The position numbers and the translations under genes are program-made. 64,000 nucleotides of DNA from Arthrobacter pascens. GTDB taxonomy: Bacteria; Actinomycetota; Actinomycetes; Actinomycetales; Micrococcaceae. Positions 51,292 through 63,931 of this stretch are shown in pieces. The stretch's first letter is position 1, and each line of letters starts with the position of its first letter. The stretch covers positions 7,048 through 71,047 of the forward strand of contig NZ_JAUSXF010000002.1 in NCBI RefSeq assembly GCF_030816475.1. The letters are read 5' to 3'. The notes beneath the pieces were generated by a model. It was not told where the DNA came from and did no database searches. It saw only the letters and a program-made list of their open reading frames with translations.

Positions 51292-52761
51292 GTGAAGGCA
51301 CTTGAGGATTGGCCGGTACTTACGCCGGAAGAGCGGACAAGGTTGGGCCTTGCTCGACGGGCACCTAAACCCGAGACAACGGTCGCAGCAAGGCATGAGG
51401 AAGTTCTGGATATGTGGGATGACGAAAATCCATTCGGCCCAAACGACATTCCAGCCTCATCGCCAGTGAAGGTGCGTTGGATTTGCGATCAGGGGCACAA
51501 TCTTATTGAGTCAGCAGTGGTTCAGTGTGGAGCGGCATCAGGTTGGCGCCGACAGGGCGGTGGCTCACGGGCATGCCTTACCTGCTTGGGTGAGCAAATG
51601 CACGGTTGGGTGCGCCTGGAGTGCGGACACGAAGTCATTGCCAAACCCGGCGCCGAAAACATGGCCATGTGTCGCCCATGCCGGAGTGCTTCCTTTGCTG
51701 CGAGGAAAACGGTAACCACTCCTAAACATCCAATTGGCACGGTAATCCAGTCACGGAATCTCACGACTTCTCAGACTGAGCAGCGAGTGAGAGAGAAACT
51801 CGTCGCCGCTGGATTCACCGTTCACAAGGGGCGGAGTGCGATTCAGTGCGGCCATGAGCCACAGCGCAACAATTTTCCCATCCTTACCCCGGACATCCTG
51901 ATCTCCAAGACCAAGGTATGTGTGGAAGTCGATCCCGCGCACACCCATGCAGGTAAGGAAAAGGATGACAACACGCGTAACCAACTGCTCGCCGGCGCCG
52001 GATGGCAGGTGGTGCGTCTGCGGCTCGGTGGGCTTGGCTCCATTGGAAAGCATGATGTCCTAGCCGAATCTGAAAGCGTTACGAACGAAGCAATCGAAGC
52101 CCTCGCATCAGCTGTTTCTGACGCAGCAGAAGGCCGTCCTGGCATTATTCGAAGGATCAGGAAGAAAGCCCCAACCGTGGTTCGGCAGAAGTCTCGATTG
52201 GGTGCCATTGCTGAACACAAGTACTACGAAAACGGCTTCTACGTCTCGTGGAAGCTGGACTCTGGGCGCGTGGAGCGCATGGTAGCGATGGAGCACGGGA
52301 GTTACTTGGCTATCGCCGAAGGCTGGGAAGCACCAAGGTTCATCTGTCCGCTGGGTTTGGATGAGCTGCCAAGAAGACAATGGCGCACTGCGCTACAGGA
52401 CATTTTGGGAGAAATGTCAGACGCAGATTTTGTGCCCAAGTCTAGGTTTCCCTGGGGTGACGAGCTGTTCATTGGAGAACAGGCATCAACTATCCGAGTT
52501 CACCCCAAGTTCCATCTCGGTGCCTCGGCGGGGGAGTTCACTGGCAACATAGTCGGCGTAGACGCCTTTACAGAGACTGCAATATGCGCGGGCAGGGATG
52601 TTCAGACTGAGCTGCACCCAGAGGCCGTCGAACGTGGCTGGCAAATTGCTGCCGTTGGACAACGGACAGGAAAGCATGGCGCGTACCAGGAAATCCAACT
52701 ACTGCGTCGATCGCCGGTGAATCCCCCGGACGAACTCGACAAATCTGGAACGCCTGCTTAA
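51292..52761 (+). CDS. Zinc-ribbon protein with nuclease-like domain
   Basis: This 489-residue protein has a zinc-ribbon module of the DUF4379/homing-endonuclease type (VRWICDQGHNLIESAV, then CLTCLGEQ and a second CGHEV...CRPC ribbon). A PD-(D/E)xK or Vsr-like region follows: TPDILISKTKVCVEVDPAHTHAGKEKDDNTRNQLLAGAGWQVVRLRLG, with the acidic residues and the GWQVVRLR strand seen in Vsr/EDxHD nucleases. The C-terminal 200 residues are unknown. It could be a homing or defence nuclease. The GTG start has GGGGGG upstream. Confidence 0.7.
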   Translation: MKALEDWPVLTPEERTRLGLARRAPKPETTVAARHEEVLDMWDDENPFGPNDIPASSPVKVRWICDQGHNLIESAVVQCGAASGWRRQGGGSRACLTCLGEQMHGWVRLECGHEVIAKPGAENMAMCRPCRSASFAARKTVTTPKHPIGTVIQSRNLTTSQTEQRVREKLVAAGFTVHKGRSAIQCGHEPQRNNFPILTPDILISKTKVCVEVDPAHTHAGKEKDDNTRNQLLAGAGWQVVRLRLGGLGSIGKHDVLAESESVTNEAIEALASAVSDAAEGRPGIIRRIRKKAPTVVRQKSRLGAIAEHKYYENGFYVSWKLDSGRVERMVAMEHGSYLAIAEGWEAPRFICPLGLDELPRRQWRTALQDILGEMSDADFVPKSRFPWGDELFIGEQASTIRVHPKFHLGASAGEFTGNIVGVDAFTETAICAGRDVQTELHPEAVERGWQIAAVGQRTGKHGAYQEIQLLRRSPVNPPDELDKSGTPA

Positions 52762-52797: not shown

Positions 52798-53514
52798 ATG
52801 TGCGGTAGATATGTGATGTCCAAGGCCACCGGCGACCTTTTGAGCCACTTTGAGGCTAAAGAGATTGAGGGGAGTCCGCCCCCGCCGAGCTGGAATGTGG
52901 CACCCACTCAAAGTGTGCCGATTGTTGCCGAACGTTTGGATGAGGGCACCATCGACCGGCATCTGCTTATTGCCCGCTGGGGCCTGGTGCCGTCATGGGC
53001 GAAGGACATCAAGATCGGCTCCAAGCTTATTAACGCCCGCAGCGAGAGCATTTTGGAGAAGCCGTCCTTCCGGAAGGCCGCGGTGAAGCGGCGTGCGATC
53101 GTCCCTGCGGAGGGTTATTACGAGTGGCAGAAGACTGAGGACGGGAAAAAGATCCCGAACTATCTGTACTCCGAGAACGAGCCTTTGCTGGGTTTCGCCG
53201 GCCTGTACGAGTGGTGGGCTGATCCGTCGCTGCCCGAGGACGACCCTGGTCGCTGGCTGCTCACCTGCACCGTTCTTACCACCACAACGCAGGACGCCTT
53301 GGGGCACGTCCATGACCGTTCCCCAGTGATCATCCCGCGGGACCGGTTTGCTGAATGGCTGGACCCGGACCTGACCGACAAGGACGGCATCCAGCACCTG
53401 CTGGACTCTTTGCCGGAACCGACCCTGACACCGCGGATCGTCAGCCCCCGGGTGAACAGCGTGCGTAACAATGGCCCAGAGCTCATTGAGCCCGCCGAGC
53501 CTGCTGCCCCATAG
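52798..53514 (+). CDS. SOS response-associated HMCES/YedK protein
   Basis: This 238-residue enzyme crosslinks to abasic sites in single-stranded DNA through Cys2. The start MCGRYV is diagnostic. Further signature parts are WNVAPTQSVPIV, ARWGLVPSWA, LINARSES, PAEGYYEWQ (catalytic Glu) and HVHDRSPVII (catalytic His). It protects single strands during repair and could guard plasmid DNA during transfer. The 47-codon gene after it may be coupled. Confidence 0.95.
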   Translation: MCGRYVMSKATGDLLSHFEAKEIEGSPPPPSWNVAPTQSVPIVAERLDEGTIDRHLLIARWGLVPSWAKDIKIGSKLINARSESILEKPSFRKAAVKRRAIVPAEGYYEWQKTEDGKKIPNYLYSENEPLLGFAGLYEWWADPSLPEDDPGRWLLTCTVLTTTTQDALGHVHDRSPVIIPRDRFAEWLDPDLTDKDGIQHLLDSLPEPTLTPRIVSPRVNSVRNNGPELIEPAEPAAP

Positions 53515-53821: not shown

Positions 53822-54760
53822 CTAGAGGCTTTCAAGTGCTTTCTCCGCCAAGCCGTTCAGGGCTTCTACGGCGTTCTCAGCGGTGCCGAGAGCGAGCACT
53901 TCCATCATCCGGGCAAGGAGCGACTTCAGCCGACTCGGTGCTGGTGCAGGAGCGTTCGTTTCCTGTTCGAGTTCAGTGGCAACTTCCACGACTTCTGCCT
54001 GACGTTCGGCGGGGATACCAAGGATGGGGAGCATCTCCCTGAGTGCCGCGGCGACCTTGCGAACATCATCAACTTGATTAGACGTCAGTGTGATCGACTG
54101 AGAGACGTTGCTGCCCCCAGTGGTGAGGTTCATGCTGCCCGAATTGGTGATGTGGATCACTGGTGCCCTTTCGCTTGCTGCCACAGCTGGCGGCATGTCT
54201 TGGTCTTCGATCTTCTGTATGCCCAACGCTGTGATTTCGGGCCGAATGACGGCACCGCCCATGGCAGCTTTACCCCGGATGAACTGCCGTTCCCGGAGGA
54301 AACGGGTCGCTTGGCTTATCTCAGTCTCGGTGAAGTCATCACCATAGAACTTGCCGTACTTACTGATAGTAAATCTGGCGATGTTGGGCGATGACTGCCC
54401 GTGCAGGTGCTCATCGTAGAGCCATTGGAGCACCGCATCGCGAGCGGCTATATTGCGTTTCCGAGGGTCAGTTATGAAGGACCGGAAATCGTCGGCGGCA
54501 TCGACGCCCTGTTGAGTGATGGTGACATCGTTTGTTCGTCCGGAGGCCTTCTCGTAGAAGATCCAATCCTTGTCCAGGAGCTCCTCAAGATCGCTGTCAA
54601 AAGCGCGCCAATCGAGGCCAAACTTCTGCGCTTCCTCGTACAGCCCTGTTATGTCCGCTGAACGGTGCCGGTTCTCGTCCGCCAACTGCTTGATGTTCAG
54701 TAGAAGAAGAAACTGCCGCAGCGCCGACGGAGACCTAAGCTCCGCCTCAAAATTGACCAT
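53822..54760 (-). CDS. Unknown protein with winged-helix and beta-strand motifs
   Basis: This 312-residue protein has two segments that look like winged helices (LGLYEEAQ-type start through ITQQGVDAADDF, and ISKYGKFYGDDFTETEISQATRFLRERQFI). A central beta stretch VIHITNSGSMNLTTGGSNVSQSITL is of the kind seen in proteins with a short parallel-beta motif, and a helical C-terminus follows. No family is recognised. It lies about 60 bases downstream of dispersed element copy B, which may control it. Confidence 0.6.
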   Translation of the reverse strand: MVNFEAELRSPSALRQFLLLLNIKQLADENRHRSADITGLYEEAQKFGLDWRAFDSDLEELLDKDWIFYEKASGRTNDVTITQQGVDAADDFRSFITDPRKRNIAARDAVLQWLYDEHLHGQSSPNIARFTISKYGKFYGDDFTETEISQATRFLRERQFIRGKAAMGGAVIRPEITALGIQKIEDQDMPPAVAASERAPVIHITNSGSMNLTTGGSNVSQSITLTSNQVDDVRKVAAALREMLPILGIPAERQAEVVEVATELEQETNAPAPAPSRLKSLLARMMEVLALGTAENAVEALNGLAEKALESL

Positions 54761-55743: not shown

Positions 55744-56133
55744 GTGAGTGAAGAGAATGCCGCCCGTTCCCGGTTCTCCCGGCGTCGCCGTGAGAACAAG
55801 CCCGCAGGGTCCAAGAAGCGCCGTGACGTGTGGGTCACTGTGGAGGAAGAAGCGGCCCTCGTCGCCAGGGCTGAGCGTGAGAGGGTCACCGTCCCGAACC
55901 TGCTGATTTCGTCAGCCTTGTCGGAGCATTCCGATTCGCCGACGGAACGCCGCGCCATCGCTGCAGAGCTGATGTCGCTGCATAACCTTCTGGCCCGTTC
56001 CTCCAACAACATCAACCAGCTCGCGCGGCAGGCGAACGCCACGAGCGAGTTCCCTGTTGAAGCCCGCGAAGCGCTTAAGCACATCCGCTCTGTGGCCATG
56101 CGGATCGACGACGCCATTGACGGGCTGATGTAG
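55744..56133 (+). CDS. mobC: MobC relaxosome accessory protein
   Basis: This 129-residue protein has a ribbon-helix-helix start (RDVWVTVEEEAALVARAERERVTVPNLLISSAL) and the MobC signature LARSSNNINQLARQANAT. It binds oriT and helps the relaxase open the strands. The GTG start at 55744 and a stop two bases before the relaxase gene indicate one transcript with translational coupling. Confidence 0.92.
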   Translation: MSEENAARSRFSRRRRENKPAGSKKRRDVWVTVEEEAALVARAERERVTVPNLLISSALSEHSDSPTERRAIAAELMSLHNLLARSSNNINQLARQANATSEFPVEAREALKHIRSVAMRIDDAIDGLM

Positions 56134-56135
56134 GC

Positions 56136-57776
56136 ATGATTCCGAACATCACTCGCGGTTCGCGCATGGCCGGCCTCATGGTTTACCTCACGTCGACTGA
56201 CGTCAACAAGACGAAGAACGCCCATCAGGATCCGCACCTGGTTGCGGGAGACGCTGCCATCATGGCGTGGTACGACGACGGCGTACTGGACCACAACGAC
56301 GCGATGGCTATCGCCAAACACTTGGACCGTCCACGCAAGGCATTTGGCGTCTCGGTGCAGATCAAAGACATGCAGTGGGACGCCGCGAAGAAGGAGCGCG
56401 TCCATGTCGGGTACAAGGACGCCAGCGTGTGGCACTGTTCCTTGAGCCTGCGCGCGGAAGAGGGCGCACTGACGGACCAGCAGTGGGGCGATATCGCCAA
56501 CGATTTCGTGGACTCCATGAGCTTCACCGAAGCGAGCGGCAAGGCCCCCTGCCGGTGGGCCGCGGTGAACCACGGCACGTCCGAGAACGGCAATCACCAC
56601 ATCCACCTGGCAGTGTCTCTCGTCCGCGAGGACGGCACCAAAGCCTCCACCCATGGGGATTACAAGCGGGCACAGCAGACCTGCCGCGAGCTGGAGGTCA
56701 AGTACGGTCTGGAACAGCTGTCCACGGTGCACGCTACCCGTGGATACGACCGGGCCGAGAAGGCCACCGCCATCAGGGATGACCGCGAGATGCACCGGTC
56801 ATCACTGGCCCGGAAGGTACGGGCCAGCGCGAGTGCCTCAGCGACCGAAGCGGAGTTCGTCCGCCGGGCCCGGGACACCGGCCTGCTGGTCCGGCCGCGC
56901 TACGCGAAGAACACGACCGACGTCATTGTTGGGTACTCCGTGGCTGAACGTCCCGCCCGGGGAGAGCGGCCGATCTGGTTCGGCGGCGGGACGCTCGCTT
57001 CTGACATGAAGCTCGGAGCCCTGCGTGAAGAATGGCTCGACTCACCGCGCCTTGCCACGGAAGCTGCAGCGGAGTGGAACGCAGCGGCACGGAACAAGCG
57101 CACGGTCTCCAAGACCGGCCCGGAGAATGCAACGCCGCCGGCAGAAGCGTGGGTGGAGTACACGCGCAACGCGACTGCACTGGCTGATCAGCTGCGCACG
57201 ATTCCGCGTGATGATCACGCGACCTGGGCGAAGGCCGCACGGGAAGTTTCCGGTGCGTTCGCGGCATGGTCGTACCGTCTTGAACCGACGCCCGGGCCGT
57301 TGGCGGCTACCGCCGCGGAACTGTCCCGCACTGCACAGCTCCGCGCGCCACGACAGCACAGCAAACCCGTCGCGCTTCCGTCGATTGCCGGTACTGCCAT
57401 GTTGTTCATGGCAGCGTCGAGCAAGAGCAAGACGGCAGCACAGACGGCACTTATGGTGCAGCTGATCAACACCGCCTTTGCGGTGTACGAGATGCACGCT
57501 CAGTCCGGGCGGACCCGTGAGGCTCAGCGCATTCGGTCGGTGGTTGAGGAGCAGTTGGCCCCGTTCACAGCGACCATGCCCAAGGCGGTTTTGGTTGGTG
57601 CCGAGCAGCAGCCTGCAGCTGAGGCTGCAGTGGCGCCCAGCGCGATCGACATTGCCCGGCGCGGAATGGTACCCATCCGTCCGGGATCGGTAGTGCCAAC
57701 GACGCCGACGCCGACAACGCCGGCCAAGACCCATCAGCCCAGCCGACGCGATTCCGGGTCGGGCCTCGACCGATAA
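56136..57776 (+). CDS. mobA: MOBP-type relaxase
   Basis: This 546-residue relaxase nicks oriT and leads the transferred strand. The likely catalytic Tyr is in AGLMVYLTS (Tyr17). Metal ligands are the histidines of VNHGTSENGNHHIHLAVSL (His146, His154, His155, His157). The GDAAIM and DPHLVAG stretches fit actinobacterial VirD2-like (MOBP) enzymes. The C-terminal 200 residues are helical and Ala-rich and may bind the coupling protein. It is two bases after mobC. Confidence 0.92.
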   Translation: MIPNITRGSRMAGLMVYLTSTDVNKTKNAHQDPHLVAGDAAIMAWYDDGVLDHNDAMAIAKHLDRPRKAFGVSVQIKDMQWDAAKKERVHVGYKDASVWHCSLSLRAEEGALTDQQWGDIANDFVDSMSFTEASGKAPCRWAAVNHGTSENGNHHIHLAVSLVREDGTKASTHGDYKRAQQTCRELEVKYGLEQLSTVHATRGYDRAEKATAIRDDREMHRSSLARKVRASASASATEAEFVRRARDTGLLVRPRYAKNTTDVIVGYSVAERPARGERPIWFGGGTLASDMKLGALREEWLDSPRLATEAAAEWNAAARNKRTVSKTGPENATPPAEAWVEYTRNATALADQLRTIPRDDHATWAKAAREVSGAFAAWSYRLEPTPGPLAATAAELSRTAQLRAPRQHSKPVALPSIAGTAMLFMAASSKSKTAAQTALMVQLINTAFAVYEMHAQSGRTREAQRIRSVVEEQLAPFTATMPKAVLVGAEQQPAAEAAVAPSAIDIARRGMVPIRPGSVVPTTPTPTTPAKTHQPSRRDSGSGLDR

Positions 57777-59574: not shown

Positions 59575-61125
59575 TCAAATAGGGGGCGCGAGCTGTGCCA
59601 GTGCATACCTGATTGGGCGAAAGTTCTCTTTCTTGTAGTCAACATAGCGTTGCTCCCGAGGGAGCTTGACTAGATAAGGGGAAACTTCGTCCCAGTCGCG
59701 CGCCGGCGTTGCGGGAAGAGCTTCAGTTACGCCCTTTACCACGACCGCTTTCAACACTGGGCGCCCGCTTTGGATAGCCGAATAGGCTCGGTGGGTTCCA
59801 TCCATCACAACCGGCCCGGATGGTGTTATCTCAATTACAGGGGGAGTAATCGGCCACGGGCTGCCCTTAATCGCAGCGGCCTCGGTCCCGAGCAACTGTA
59901 CGAGGCCTTCGAGTGGTCTGAGGCGGGCGAGCTTGAATCTTTCGAGGCTCCTCGTCATAGGACGAGCCGTCGTCATATCGAAATCCTGGACTTCGATTTC
60001 GGCGTGACGATACTGGGAAACTCCATGTAGTGCCCTGATCAAGTCTTCGCGAGGGATAGGAACGATCTCAACTTCGCCACTGATGCCGCTTCCCTCCAAT
60101 GATCGATCCCACTCCATTTCGAAGCGTTCGTTCAGGACGGCTAGAAGCCCACGATCGTCGGGCTCAGTGAGAAGGGAGGAGCTTCCCTGATCGATCACAA
60201 CAGCACACCGGGCGCCTTCTGATCCGACGACGGTCATTTTCAGTAGGCCAGCACTCGCTGCCTTTCGGACTTGGCCTATCGCGCTGGCAGCTGCAAATGC
60301 GTCCCAGTATTTTTGCTCGCCGTCGTAGTCCGGGGGAGTCGTCAGGAATTTGAACTGACAGCCAGCTGCGGCGGCGGCAAGCAGTGGTATGTAGGCTTCT
60401 CGCAACCAAGAAAGATCACCGGCCCAGACACGAACATCTTCGCCGCATGCGGCAATCATGTCGAGAGTCGACTGCAGTAGGCGATTTCGGTCGGATCCTT
60501 TGCGTGCCGAGGCGACCGCATGCTTCGACGGCATAAGGGCGCCCGCATCTATGGACGGAACCATGTGATTGTGCTTGAAGGATTCGAAGAATCCAGCGTT
60601 CAACTCCCGCAGCTGTTTTTGCAGCGACAGCGGGTACCGTCCAACATCCTGACCGTAAACGAGCTTCATCTCGCCGTAGCCCGTGATGCTGGGGTTGGGA
60701 TCCAACGTCCCGATATATACGCGTTCAAAATTGGCGGTCTCTACTCGCTCCACGCACGGGATCTTGCCGCTCCCGCGTTGTACGCACGGCTCAAGCGTTG
60801 TAAAGAGAATCTTGCCTCGCGGGTCAACACCTTGCTCGCGAGCCTTCTCAAGCAATGTGTACTCCGCATGAGCACCGGGACGCTCGCCTCTGTAAGACCG
60901 AACAAGCACTTCCCCTGATTTGTCATCTACCAAGAGAGCGCCGACTTTAGGACGCGGAGAGTCATCTTCCGCGACAGAGCGACGGGCCTCGTCGATTGAC
61001 TCCCGCATGAGCGAGTCAAGTTGCGTCTCAGTGAGCAACGACGTCTCCAATTCTGTAGCTATCCGTCCGAATACTTTAGTCAAGCGGATCACGGCAAGAG
61101 GGCCTTGCCTTTGCTCGCGGCTCAT
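59575..61125 (-). CDS. Deaminase - PLD-like - ParB-like fusion protein
   Basis: This 516-residue protein has three parts. Residues ~40-160 match the RibD-type cytidine deaminase fold, with zinc ligands and catalytic Glu in GAHAEYTLL (His86, Glu88), LFTTLEPC (Cys114) and KIPCVERV (Cys124), and LDPNPSITGYG as in RibD. Residues ~215-345 look like a phospholipase-D-type domain without HKD residues. Residues ~425-465 contain VVMDGTHRAYSAI, a ParB/Srx-like motif. It is second in an operon, six bases after the helicase-nuclease gene. No riboflavin genes are near, so nucleotide or nucleic-acid deamination in defence is a reasonable guess. Confidence 0.78.
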   Translation of the reverse strand: MSREQRQGPLAVIRLTKVFGRIATELETSLLTETQLDSLMRESIDEARRSVAEDDSPRPKVGALLVDDKSGEVLVRSYRGERPGAHAEYTLLEKAREQGVDPRGKILFTTLEPCVQRGSGKIPCVERVETANFERVYIGTLDPNPSITGYGEMKLVYGQDVGRYPLSLQKQLRELNAGFFESFKHNHMVPSIDAGALMPSKHAVASARKGSDRNRLLQSTLDMIAACGEDVRVWAGDLSWLREAYIPLLAAAAAGCQFKFLTTPPDYDGEQKYWDAFAAASAIGQVRKAASAGLLKMTVVGSEGARCAVVIDQGSSSLLTEPDDRGLLAVLNERFEMEWDRSLEGSGISGEVEIVPIPREDLIRALHGVSQYRHAEIEVQDFDMTTARPMTRSLERFKLARLRPLEGLVQLLGTEAAAIKGSPWPITPPVIEITPSGPVVMDGTHRAYSAIQSGRPVLKAVVVKGVTEALPATPARDWDEVSPYLVKLPREQRYVDYKKENFRPIRYALAQLAPPI

Positions 61126-61131
61126 TCCTGG

Positions 61132-63660
61132 TCATCGGATCCTCTTGCTATGGCCGGGCACAATCTGCGCAGCGGTCAACTGGTTGCGCTCCAATCCTGT
61201 CGCAACAGCCTTCGGGTCGGCCCATGAAGCGGAAGAGGCGAGTTCTTTAACGAATGCCTCAACATCTGACCTTAGGTCCTGAAGATGTGACTTTGTCATC
61301 ACCCGAGTTCCCCCAGGCACGTGTGCTGCAGAATCGAGCAGTTCTGAAGGGTGGAGCAGCACAGGCGTAGGCTCACCTGCGTCTGGATACTGTTTGCCGA
61401 ACCAGGTCATCGAATGGACCAACTGCGCGGCTTCGCTCTTGATGATTACTGGTTTGCTGCGCGAGACATCCGTCTTCAGCTCGATGACGGCATGCTGTTG
61501 GGGAGTAAGAGCCCAAAGATTGTCCGGTCCACCATCCCGGTCCTCCTTTTCAGGGCGGATCGAGCCGAACCCAAGATGGAGGCCCAGAAGCCGAATTTGT
61601 TCCTCCGCAAGATCGGCACCGTGCTCCACGCCCCACGCGATGTTGTCAAACAACGAAGCCACGGCAAGTTCCATGGTGCGAGCATCCTGGTATCGATCAC
61701 CGAGGTACTCGGCAGCTGCCTTACCTTGCGCAGCGGGACCCACAACCTTTTTTCGGGAAGGCGCTACTGAGGGTTTCAATACCCCAGAATTGAGTTTTCG
61801 CGCCGCGGCTTGGGTCTTTTGTGCTGCGGTTGGATCCACAAAATGCTCGTAAGTGGCGAGTTCTTCCAAATGCCAACCTTTGAGCAACGGATCAGTGATG
61901 GTGTCGATTGCTTTCCTAAGGACTTGCACTGCGCCGTCGGCATCCCCTGCCATAGCCAAGTTGAATGCCTTCCGCCGACCTTCAGCAAGAGGCGTAACGG
62001 TGCCGGCGCTGTCGTAAGTCACGTCTGCGGTTGCTTCCAAACTCTTGCTCACCCATTGGGTCTTGCGCTCTAAGAAAGTATCAAGCAGGTCTGCGATGAC
62101 ATCGGCGCCTTCGCCGTCGATCTGTTCAGCAATCTGCAGACTAAGTTCTACCTGCGCGCGAGTCGCCGGTGAGTAAAACTGTCGGAGTTGCGGATCTCGC
62201 AGGGTCAAGGCTGCTTCGTTAGTAAGAATGAGAACTGCACAGTAGTCGCTTACATCTCTGATCCCTCGCCCCATGCCTTGCTCGATCCGCTGTACTTCCC
62301 GGGCTCTGAAGTACATAGACCCCGTCAGAGCAGCTGAAGCTCTCTGCTCATTAGGGGTCAGAGGGGTCGGAATCCCGTCGATGATAAGTAGGCGACAGGC
62401 ATCACCTGGTAGGTCCACGCCGTCGTACTTGTTCACCAAGACAACAAGACCAATATGTTCGCCCTTCTTCATGCGCTCGATAACTGGCCCCATATCAGCG
62501 ACGTGAAGTGTCGCATTGGCTATTTCGCTCCAACGACTGGCAGCATAATCTCCCGGGACGAGAACCACGACGTTGACTGGCGTGGCGTCCGTCTTCCCAT
62601 CTCCATCACGATCGCCGTCCGCGAAGTTTCGAGCGAGCTTCAATATTGCACTGTCTGCCAGTCGCGGGTTGATGGAAAGTGGGGCCAAGACGATTCGGTC
62701 GCCCAAATCCGAGGCTTGGTTCGGGGTGATCGGCTTACGCACCGCTCCGGGATCCGCGTCAAGCTCCGTTACCAGTACGCCCTCGTCTTCAAGCGTGGCT
62801 GTGAGATACACGCGGCGCTTGGCTTGCCGGAAAGCAGGTATCAGAGCTACTTCAGGACAGGGGGTCTTAATCTCTACAACCCGTGAAGTGAAAGTAACCG
62901 TGGCAAACTTCAAAGAATCTGCCACGAAGGGCCAGGAGAAGTACAGGGACTTAATCTTGTCATCATTTGCATGCGGCCTGACAATGTTCATGATTTCGTT
63001 GGTACGAGCTGCAACGGCTTTAGTAGGTACACGGATAGGAGCGCCGTGGTCCCCAGCCTCCATCTCGGCAAACGCTTTCGGACTTTGCTCGCGTAGCTCT
63101 GCTGAAAAAAGTTTCAGCAACTGCTCAAAGGCCTTGCACGATGCTGGAACTGTGGCCGCAAATAAACCGTTGGTCGCTGCCAGAGCGGCATGAGCGTCGT
63201 CAACAATAACAACTCCGAGCGGGATCACCTTCTTCACTCCACGCACACCAAAAGCGCTGCGCCCGTTGACGAGCTTGTGGAAGGTGGTGACTAGGATCGC
63301 CTGGGAAGACCGGAACTGTTCGGCATCCGGATCTCGCGTTACCGGAATCTTGGCATCATTCGCTTCATCCACCACTTGCTGGATGAGAAAGCTGTCGGGC
63401 ACAAGGAACACTGCGGGCCCGATACCTTCGTGCAAGCTCGATTGGGCAATCAGGAGGCCCGTAAGCGTCTTGCCGCCGCCAGTATTCTGCTTAAGGACAA
63501 GGTCAGACTCCCGGCGTCGGTCATACCACGCTTCCAGAACTTCATTCTGTTCTGGGCGGAGGCGAGGCCACTTACGCCCCTGCAAAGAAGCATAAATTTC
63601 CCGCGGCCGAGTGAGCTTCGCACCTTTATTTGGATTTATTTCATCCCAACGGATCGCCAT
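61132..63660 (-). CDS. SF2 helicase with C-terminal PD-(D/E)xK-like nuclease
   Basis: This 842-residue protein starts at ATG 63660; ATG 63681 is possible but has no ribosome site. Walker A is LKQNTGGGKTLTG (GGGKT ~61-65), motif II is VVIVDDAHAAL (~152-162), and motif VI is VQRIEQGMGRGIRD. The C-terminal region has GGPDNLWALTPQQHAVIELKTD, fitting the PD...ExK nuclease signature, then a helical end. The architecture is that of helicase-nuclease effectors in anti-phage or anti-plasmid systems. It is probably co-translated with the deaminase fusion downstream. Confidence 0.82.
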   Translation of the reverse strand: MAIRWDEINPNKGAKLTRPREIYASLQGRKWPRLRPEQNEVLEAWYDRRRESDLVLKQNTGGGKTLTGLLIAQSSLHEGIGPAVFLVPDSFLIQQVVDEANDAKIPVTRDPDAEQFRSSQAILVTTFHKLVNGRSAFGVRGVKKVIPLGVVIVDDAHAALAATNGLFAATVPASCKAFEQLLKLFSAELREQSPKAFAEMEAGDHGAPIRVPTKAVAARTNEIMNIVRPHANDDKIKSLYFSWPFVADSLKFATVTFTSRVVEIKTPCPEVALIPAFRQAKRRVYLTATLEDEGVLVTELDADPGAVRKPITPNQASDLGDRIVLAPLSINPRLADSAILKLARNFADGDRDGDGKTDATPVNVVVLVPGDYAASRWSEIANATLHVADMGPVIERMKKGEHIGLVVLVNKYDGVDLPGDACRLLIIDGIPTPLTPNEQRASAALTGSMYFRAREVQRIEQGMGRGIRDVSDYCAVLILTNEAALTLRDPQLRQFYSPATRAQVELSLQIAEQIDGEGADVIADLLDTFLERKTQWVSKSLEATADVTYDSAGTVTPLAEGRRKAFNLAMAGDADGAVQVLRKAIDTITDPLLKGWHLEELATYEHFVDPTAAQKTQAAARKLNSGVLKPSVAPSRKKVVGPAAQGKAAAEYLGDRYQDARTMELAVASLFDNIAWGVEHGADLAEEQIRLLGLHLGFGSIRPEKEDRDGGPDNLWALTPQQHAVIELKTDVSRSKPVIIKSEAAQLVHSMTWFGKQYPDAGEPTPVLLHPSELLDSAAHVPGGTRVMTKSHLQDLRSDVEAFVKELASSASWADPKAVATGLERNQLTAAQIVPGHSKRIR

Positions 63661-63679
63661 TAGTGCCGCTTTCAAAGTC

Positions 63680-63931
63680 ATGCGTGCTTGGCACGCGAAA
63701 CAAATAGAGCATCACGAATGGCTTGCCCCCTGGGTTGAGTGTACTAAGTGCCATCTCCGGAGCCACCGCTCAGCAGCGCGGAACGCCGGCAACGGAACAA
63801 GCGGATCCGTGCTCTCGGCATTGGCAGGCAATGATCATTTCGACGCGGAAGCACCGTTTGCCAGCCTCCGCGCCAAGCAAGCAGAATTCAAAGCATGGCG
63901 CGAAGACAACGAACGGAAGAACCTCAGCTAA
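63680..63931 (+). CDS. Possible small protein divergent from the helicase gene
   Basis: An 83-residue frame (MRAWHAKQIEHHEWLAPWVECTKCHLRSHRSAARN...) with one C-x2-C pair and a charged helical end (ASLRAKQAEFKAWREDNERKN). It overlaps the upstream start region of the helicase gene. The ribosome site is poor. It may be a real small gene or a remnant at the cargo border. Confidence 0.3.
   Translation: MRAWHAKQIEHHEWLAPWVECTKCHLRSHRSAARNAGNGTSGSVLSALAGNDHFDAEAPFASLRAKQAEFKAWREDNERKNLS

Follow-up and report, generated by a model that had tools for sequence, protein, structure and literature searches.

The closest described relative of the helicase considered here is Hna, which the available text of PMC13381803 presents as a single-effector system with a frequency of about 2% among sequenced genomes of bacteria. 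There, Hna of Sinorhizobium meliloti is described as a 3'-5' exonuclease of single-stranded DNA (ssDNA) that is kept inactive through ATP-driven dimerisation and released by the phage single-stranded DNA-binding protein (SSB), which leads to abortive infection. The ATP-induced dimer runs through the loop residues T30/D31/P34, the K729A substitution abolishes the exonuclease activity, and the data-availability statement assigns 10UJ and 9YKJ to the Hna monomer and dimer (PMC13381803). The subject of this work is a locus of Arthrobacter pascens in which a gene of this type is followed by a gene encoding a deaminase fusion. The whole stretch analysed, 64,000 nucleotides of contig NZ_JAUSXF010000002.1 (assembly GCF_030816475.1), is called the window below. 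The two genes, at 61132-63681 (849 amino acids, aa) and 59575-61125 (516 aa; gene 2), share the minus strand with six bases between them, and their features are as follows.

61132-63681, minus strand: helicase-nuclease assigned to the Hna family (PADLOC PDC-S28), a superfamily 2 (SF2) helicase with a C-terminal PD-(D/E)XK nuclease; phmmer, PADLOC, and invariant columns
61126-61131, minus strand: six-base gap from the helicase stop to the deaminase ATG
59575-61125, minus strand: RibD-like deaminase / iHKD / ParB-like protein, 516 aa, proposed to be an effector acting on its own; 35 full-length members, model with a predicted local distance difference test (pLDDT) score of 87.4
60568-61023, minus strand: deaminase domain, residues 35-186, with H86-A-E88, P113-C114, P123-C124, and a DPNP motif
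60103-60489, minus strand: iHKD / phospholipase D (PLD)-like region without HKD, about residues 213-341, with a GDLSW motif
59578-60087, minus strand: ParB/Srx-like region and tail, about residues 347-516, with D442-G-T-H445-R446

We read this arrangement, with a probability of about 0.6, as two independent defence-type genes standing side by side: Hna and a modular conflict protein that joins an iHKD-ParB regulator to a deaminase effector. Judging by its sequence, the 849-aa helicase is almost certainly a protein of the Hna family, which is already named and characterised in phage defence. The PADLOC model PDC-S28 matches it with an E-value of 1.4e-265, and the search of solved structures returned one close relative, 10uj/9yhn/9ykj. 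Residues 20-814 (of 849) were aligned by phmmer with residues 13-806 of 10uj_A (E 9.4e-96), S. meliloti Hna (845 aa) being collinear with this part of the window protein over nearly its full length, and the Hna family profile matches 10uj/9yhn/9ykj at E 6.7e-210. The one paper found to mention PDC-S28, PMC11811056, lists it in the available passage with other PADLOC candidate names for which DefenseFinder has a different name; the other name is missing from that passage.

The SF2 motifs of the window helicase are a Walker A GGGKT with K71, DDAH at 161-164, and a motif VI QGMGRGIR, and its domain matches are ResIII, DEAD, and Helicase_C_2. In 42 aligned sequences, the query included, K71, D161, D162, H164, Q468, G469, G471, R472, and R475 are invariant, as are the nuclease residues D720, E734, and K736, while A163, M470, and G473 are kept in at least 90%. 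In the pairwise alignment, E734-L-K736 of the window protein falls on E727-C-K729 of Hna, so K736 is the counterpart of the catalytic K729. By analogy with S. meliloti Hna, the window protein would degrade ssDNA as a 3'-5' exonuclease restrained by ATP until phage SSB sets it free, with abortive infection as the outcome.

The association of the two genes was followed from both sides. On the helicase side, 46 other Hna-family loci were available: 3 from related genomes, 5 from genomes of the class, 11 from annotated records, and 27 from viral contigs; of the plasmid records, 182 match Hna and 10 of these were opened, together with one record of the phage collection. The helicase profile matches all 46, several of them as distant relatives (134-229 bits); many of the 27 viral-contig loci look near-identical, and contig ends truncate some of the flanks. 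The deaminase-family profile has no match at E 1e-3 at any of these 46 loci, this partner alone being counted. On the deaminase side, Hna is found at none of the 27 other loci. This set includes one place present twice (L010 and L095), probably a second such case (L043 and L097), and many short or RibD-type relatives. Only L039 and L040 encode the fusion in full length; L041, close to the end of its contig, has it truncated. PDC-S28 has no match in the five genomes behind L039-L043; the same model did match the window's own genome. A conserved operon of Hna and the deaminase gene was rejected on the loci scanned, and the pair in the window is more likely to be two separate defence-type genes than one new two-gene system.

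The original prediction, made from the window's sequence, had proposed exactly such a new system and had named conserved pairing beforehand as a point on which it could be refuted. Pairing was not seen at the scanned loci of either kind, and the helicase falls into a named family; the proposal is thus not supported. A false lead is thereby removed, as the window helicase needs no new system, Hna being characterised. The description of the genes themselves held good: an SF2 helicase with a C-terminal nuclease does lie six bases from a fusion of deaminase, HKD-less PLD-like, and ParB-like parts, with the zinc ligands kept in 35 of 35 members, and the helicase-nuclease does belong to a phage-defence family and lies on a seemingly plasmid-like contig on which type III restriction genes are also present.

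Comparison of the last 14 kb of the window with the Hna locus of a genome of the same genus (G100) gave a single block of DNA homology, 61166-63688, which is 74% identical. At the stop end of Hna the block falls 34 bases short of the gene boundary, and at the other end it reaches 7 bases beyond the start codon, into the upstream DNA. The gene downstream of Hna in G100 matches DolA (PADLOC 1.4e-74, DUF6414), not the deaminase. Elsewhere the neighbours of Hna vary and several are of the defence type: LmuB of Lamassu, DolA (L092), PDC-M30A (L116), and genes annotated as ABC-three-component at L111; in the records opened, the flanks also hold many genes that are hypothetical or unrelated to defence. 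It can also be noted that LmuB genes lie close to Hna at two different loci, L106 and L115. Another Hna-family helicase is encoded by the Lactococcus plasmid pMRC01 (L112, 5983-8517). This plasmid is known for phage resistance, for part of which Hna may account.

Gene 2 encodes deaminase, iHKD, and ParB-like regions that are collinear in the alignment of 35 full-length proteins (query included). The zinc site, HAE and PC-x(n)-PC, and the PF00383 domain are present in all 35, and the predicted structure contains a deaminase fold; on sequence and model, the N-terminus can be placed in the zinc cytidine/deoxycytidylate-type deaminase superfamily. PF24402 (iHKD) was detected in 4 of the 35 members at E 0.1, positioned after the deaminase; a PLDc_2 match of 0.014 was obtained for P0196, and the database entry for P0184 lists PF24402. 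HKD itself is not conserved (the pattern occurs in 1 of 35 members), and in the predicted model the putative PLD-like region shows a strand-helix order. PF24392 (Parb-CE) was detected in 11 of the 35 at E 0.1, exceeding its cut-off in P0016, P0024, P0030, and P0190 and not in the window protein. All 35 carry a DG.HR motif, and we take the DGxHR type of motif to be a feature of the ParB/Srx superfamily.

A solved-structure search with the iHKD-ParB module alone gave no match at E 10, and in the structure comparison of the full gene 2 model the list was filled by deaminases and RibD-type chains, that domain dominating. The iHKD Pfam model had no match in 149 genomes of the phylum, but no control matched either. 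PADLOC returned for gene 2 only dCTPase (E 0.022 over 29 residues), and for the relative P0024 no match. Literature searches found no paper for 'inactive HKD' or 'ParB-CE'; of 1,837 papers with iHKD or ParB, the ten listed do not contain iHKD, which says little about iHKD alone. Joined to a deaminase or a patatin, these domains occur in none of the papers found, and two of the searches gave nothing but a paper on BREX. Pfam models named iHKD and Parb-CE exist, so parts of gene 2 have already been seen by others.

The C-terminal module also occurs with another enzyme. With residues 195-470 of P0024 as the query, 30 proteins were obtained, counting P0024 itself. In P0196 and P0197, both complete, a patatin phospholipase takes the place of the deaminase (E 2.1e-24 and 2e-29) and has the motifs GGGxRG/K, GxSxG, and DGG; P0198 is a 5'-truncated copy of the patatin type, 39% identical to P0196 from its residue 235 on. 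The remaining 27 of the 30 belong to deaminase types, in part as fragments; P0193 was assigned by eye and from its linker alone. The alignment of the window protein with P0196 is confined to the module (35% over 309 residues). A divergent patatin version is encoded by plasmid pA of Kovacikia minuta (26% to P0197, module profile E 3e-22). Its gene lies directly downstream of a gene for a 262-aa protein with a four-base overlap (L149, 6904-9695), near WYL, cas6d, cas4d, and cas1 genes, with cas6/cas4/cas1 downstream. The 262-aa protein is nucleotidyltransferase-like by eye only and has no PADLOC match. The patatin parts match the 'Effector, Phospholipase' models of PADLOC; none of its cyclase models had a match among the six neighbours scanned at L149, the sole patatin copy with a readable context. 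Since some relatives carry a patatin phospholipase in the same slot, the N-terminus can be read as an exchangeable effector, and we infer a pattern of effector plus sensor/regulator, in which deaminase or patatin is set on a conserved module.

RibD is the best domain match of the gene 2 deaminase; however, the NCBIfam RibD score is 52.8 against a cut-off of 156.35 bits, and the reductase domain PF01872 is not among the families matched by the 35 members. On a tree of 52 deaminase domains, 13 RibD rows stand on one side of a branch (100/99), and a single clade (100/100) unites 20 iHKD-ParB fusions and two partial ones. The tree took 20 of the 35 full-length members; P0038-P0040 (methyltransferase fusions) and L042 were left out, as the motif cut found no domain in them. 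A metabolic RibD identity of gene 2 was rejected by the sub-cut-off score, the lack of a reductase domain, and the tree. The remark in the original prediction that no such fusion had been described stands for gene 2 within the searches made. Hna is already known; the deaminase/patatin-iHKD-ParB family is apparently without a description in PADLOC, NCBIfam, or the literature searched.

Near relatives of the gene 2 deaminase are fused otherwise, to a methyltransferase (L042) or to PF13749 (P0045 and others). An NB-ARC/AAA-TPR protein is encoded about 1.9 kb upstream of the deaminase-methyltransferase fusion of L042 (5470-11311), which is another possible conflict deaminase. L043, L059, L097, and L098 hold short relatives (about 290-310 aa) of the same deaminase group in which no iHKD-ParB part is recognised.

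Within the samples examined, the deaminase-iHKD-ParB family is rare. A pattern scan of limited sensitivity, with one genome per species for 84,980 species, found 20 loci, two of them full-length. Of 396 genomes sampled from the phylum, 3 match at E 1e-30, namely the window's own and two short ones; of 396 sampled from the order, the window's own is the only one to match at E 1e-40. Deaminase matches of 167 of 199 relatives were not counted as the family: among the matches listed, they cover about 90-165 deaminase residues with low scores, the exceptions being the window's own and one in G048, which is partial (residues 18-183 at 48% identity) and interrupted by two stops. No deaminase match was found in phage records; viral contigs hold three loci with a deaminase domain and no relative of the iHKD-ParB module. 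A tblastn search of 72,556 plasmid records with the C-terminal module of the window protein gave no match, and in the search with P0197, 1 of 14 matched records covers the module (Kovacikia pA). The Mesorhizobium copy lies in an island (L040, 1443-17536) where two genes for DNA methylases, an HATPase gene, and a gene with a weak TIR-like match, below the Pfam cut-off, are found within about 8.6 kb of it.

The source genome comprises 4.68 Mb in two contigs. The window corresponds to positions 7048-71047 of the second contig (C2), which is 71,047 bases long, so the window ends where the contig ends. Because genes for MobC and a MobA/VirD2-type relaxase are located on it, at 55744-57776 of the window and near gene 2, the contig is probably plasmid-like. 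Ahead of the window, C2:819-5652 holds genes for a type III methylase and a restriction-type protein. The GC content at third codon positions (GC3) is low in both window genes (0.60 and 0.57), against 0.77 in the relaxase gene and 0.75-0.77 in the type III restriction-modification (RM) genes.

The domains and motifs of gene 2, the sharing of its module, and the non-pairing in the scanned loci are observed; its signal, its substrate, and a defence role are proposals. Its iHKD-ParB half may be a sensing or regulatory module that probably binds nucleic acid or nucleoside triphosphate (NTP). A signal, either nucleic acid of an invader or an alteration of the NTP pool, would act on this half and free the deaminase, which would then deaminate a pyrimidine-type nucleotide, precursor, or base to the harm of the infected or invaded cell. 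The two genes are perhaps co-transcribed, neither presumably needing the other, because each occurs separately elsewhere. Tentatively, and as a suggestion less likely to be right than wrong, iHKD-ParB could be an undescribed family of single-protein immune sensors of invader nucleic acid or altered NTP pools that release an exchangeable N-terminal effector, the deaminase version being a nucleotide-depleting or base-editing abortive-infection protein derived from a vitamin-B2-type enzyme. Effector swapping on one module is known from other modular immune systems. If the suggestion is true, one small regulatory module governs two chemically different killing enzymes, and deaminases gain a new, testable route into phage defence.

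Other explanations of gene 2 and of the pair have to be considered. Gene 2 might edit bases of invading DNA or RNA (C-to-U or A-to-I type), targeted by its ParB/iHKD part, rather than act on small nucleotides; the deaminase fold is common to TadA and AID-like families, and ParB-like and PLD-like folds often bind DNA, so the idea has grounds, but we regard it as rather doubtful. That gene 2 is a metabolic enzyme, a riboflavin-type deaminase with a fused regulator and no conflict role, is highly improbable: RibD is its best domain match, yet the score, the families matched by the 35 members, the separate clade, the swap of the effector to patatin, and the patchy, rare distribution are all at odds with it. 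A further option is action against competing plasmids or conjugation rather than phage, as by Osa, a ParB/Srx protein active against competing plasmids or conjugation. The MobC and relaxase genes near gene 2 fit this option. So does the available text of PMC12839542, which attributes nicking of ssDNA to members of the ParB/Srx superfamily; the title of a work cited there connects them with conflict among conjugative plasmids. The module shows little plasmid habit in the tblastn searches, however, and we consider the option unlikely.

It is likewise improbable that the pair is a true two-component system of this lineage, in which Hna would turn invader DNA into ssDNA for editing or tagging by the deaminase protein, or the latter would regulate Hna. 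The six-base spacing on one strand and the similarly low GC3, which sets the two genes apart from the relaxase and type III RM genes, would suit such a system; the absence of the pair at the 46 and 27 other loci, the DolA gene downstream of the same-genus Hna, and the description of Hna as a single-effector system (available text of PMC13381803) argue against it.

The reading as two independent defence-type genes has several points against it. Besides the window's locus, just two full-length deaminase loci with neighbours were available (L039 and L040), the closest relatives, P0002 and P0003, being outside this count; L039 spans 5,952 bases, and its two upstream genes were scanned without a Pfam or PADLOC match. 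All iHKD scores seen are below the Pfam cut-off (best 24.6 versus 27, P0197), the Kovacikia copy is without the DGxHR motif, and at least one short relative, L043, stands in what resembles a trp locus by eye. Opposite T30/D31/P34 of the Hna loop, the window helicase has a gap, K37, and R40, beside an alignment gap; because these dimer-loop residues are unmatched, self-inhibition of the window protein may differ from that of published Hna. Finally, the similar low GC3 and the six-base gap leave room for a joint arrival and cooperation here. Joint arrival may have occurred; GC3 is no proof of it, because the Hna gene of G100 (0.58) and the gene at 51292-52761 (0.57) are also low, so low GC3 is not peculiar to the pair.

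The gene at 51292-52761 encodes a DUF559/REase-like protein, and the next gene, 52798-53514, is presumably that of an SOS-response-associated peptidase, to judge from its MCGRY start. The 312-aa protein of 53822-54760 resembles PADLOC PDC-M14B in its C-terminal part (3.1e-6). If contig C2 is circular, the type III genes at C2:819-5652 would adjoin Hna in divergent orientation.

When the locus is compared with known systems, Hachiman, Gabija, Nhi, and Druantia III share the principle of helicase plus nuclease with the window protein; none of them is among its nine PADLOC matches. S. meliloti Hna and the window Hna both combine an SF2 helicase with a PD-(D/E)XK nuclease and an aligned catalytic lysine, and the neighbours are variable and several of the defence type; they differ in the dimer-loop residues and in the deaminase gene that here lies six bases downstream. 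RibD has a reductase domain, whereas gene 2 is without it and is fused to iHKD-ParB; in the alignment, the RibD structure 2hxv has one residue fewer between the zinc cysteines. Pfam iHKD and Parb-CE give weak but ordered matches in the relatives of gene 2. Patatin phospholipase effectors are of the CBASS type, and in P0196, P0197, and the Kovacikia protein a patatin fills the place of the deaminase before iHKD-ParB.
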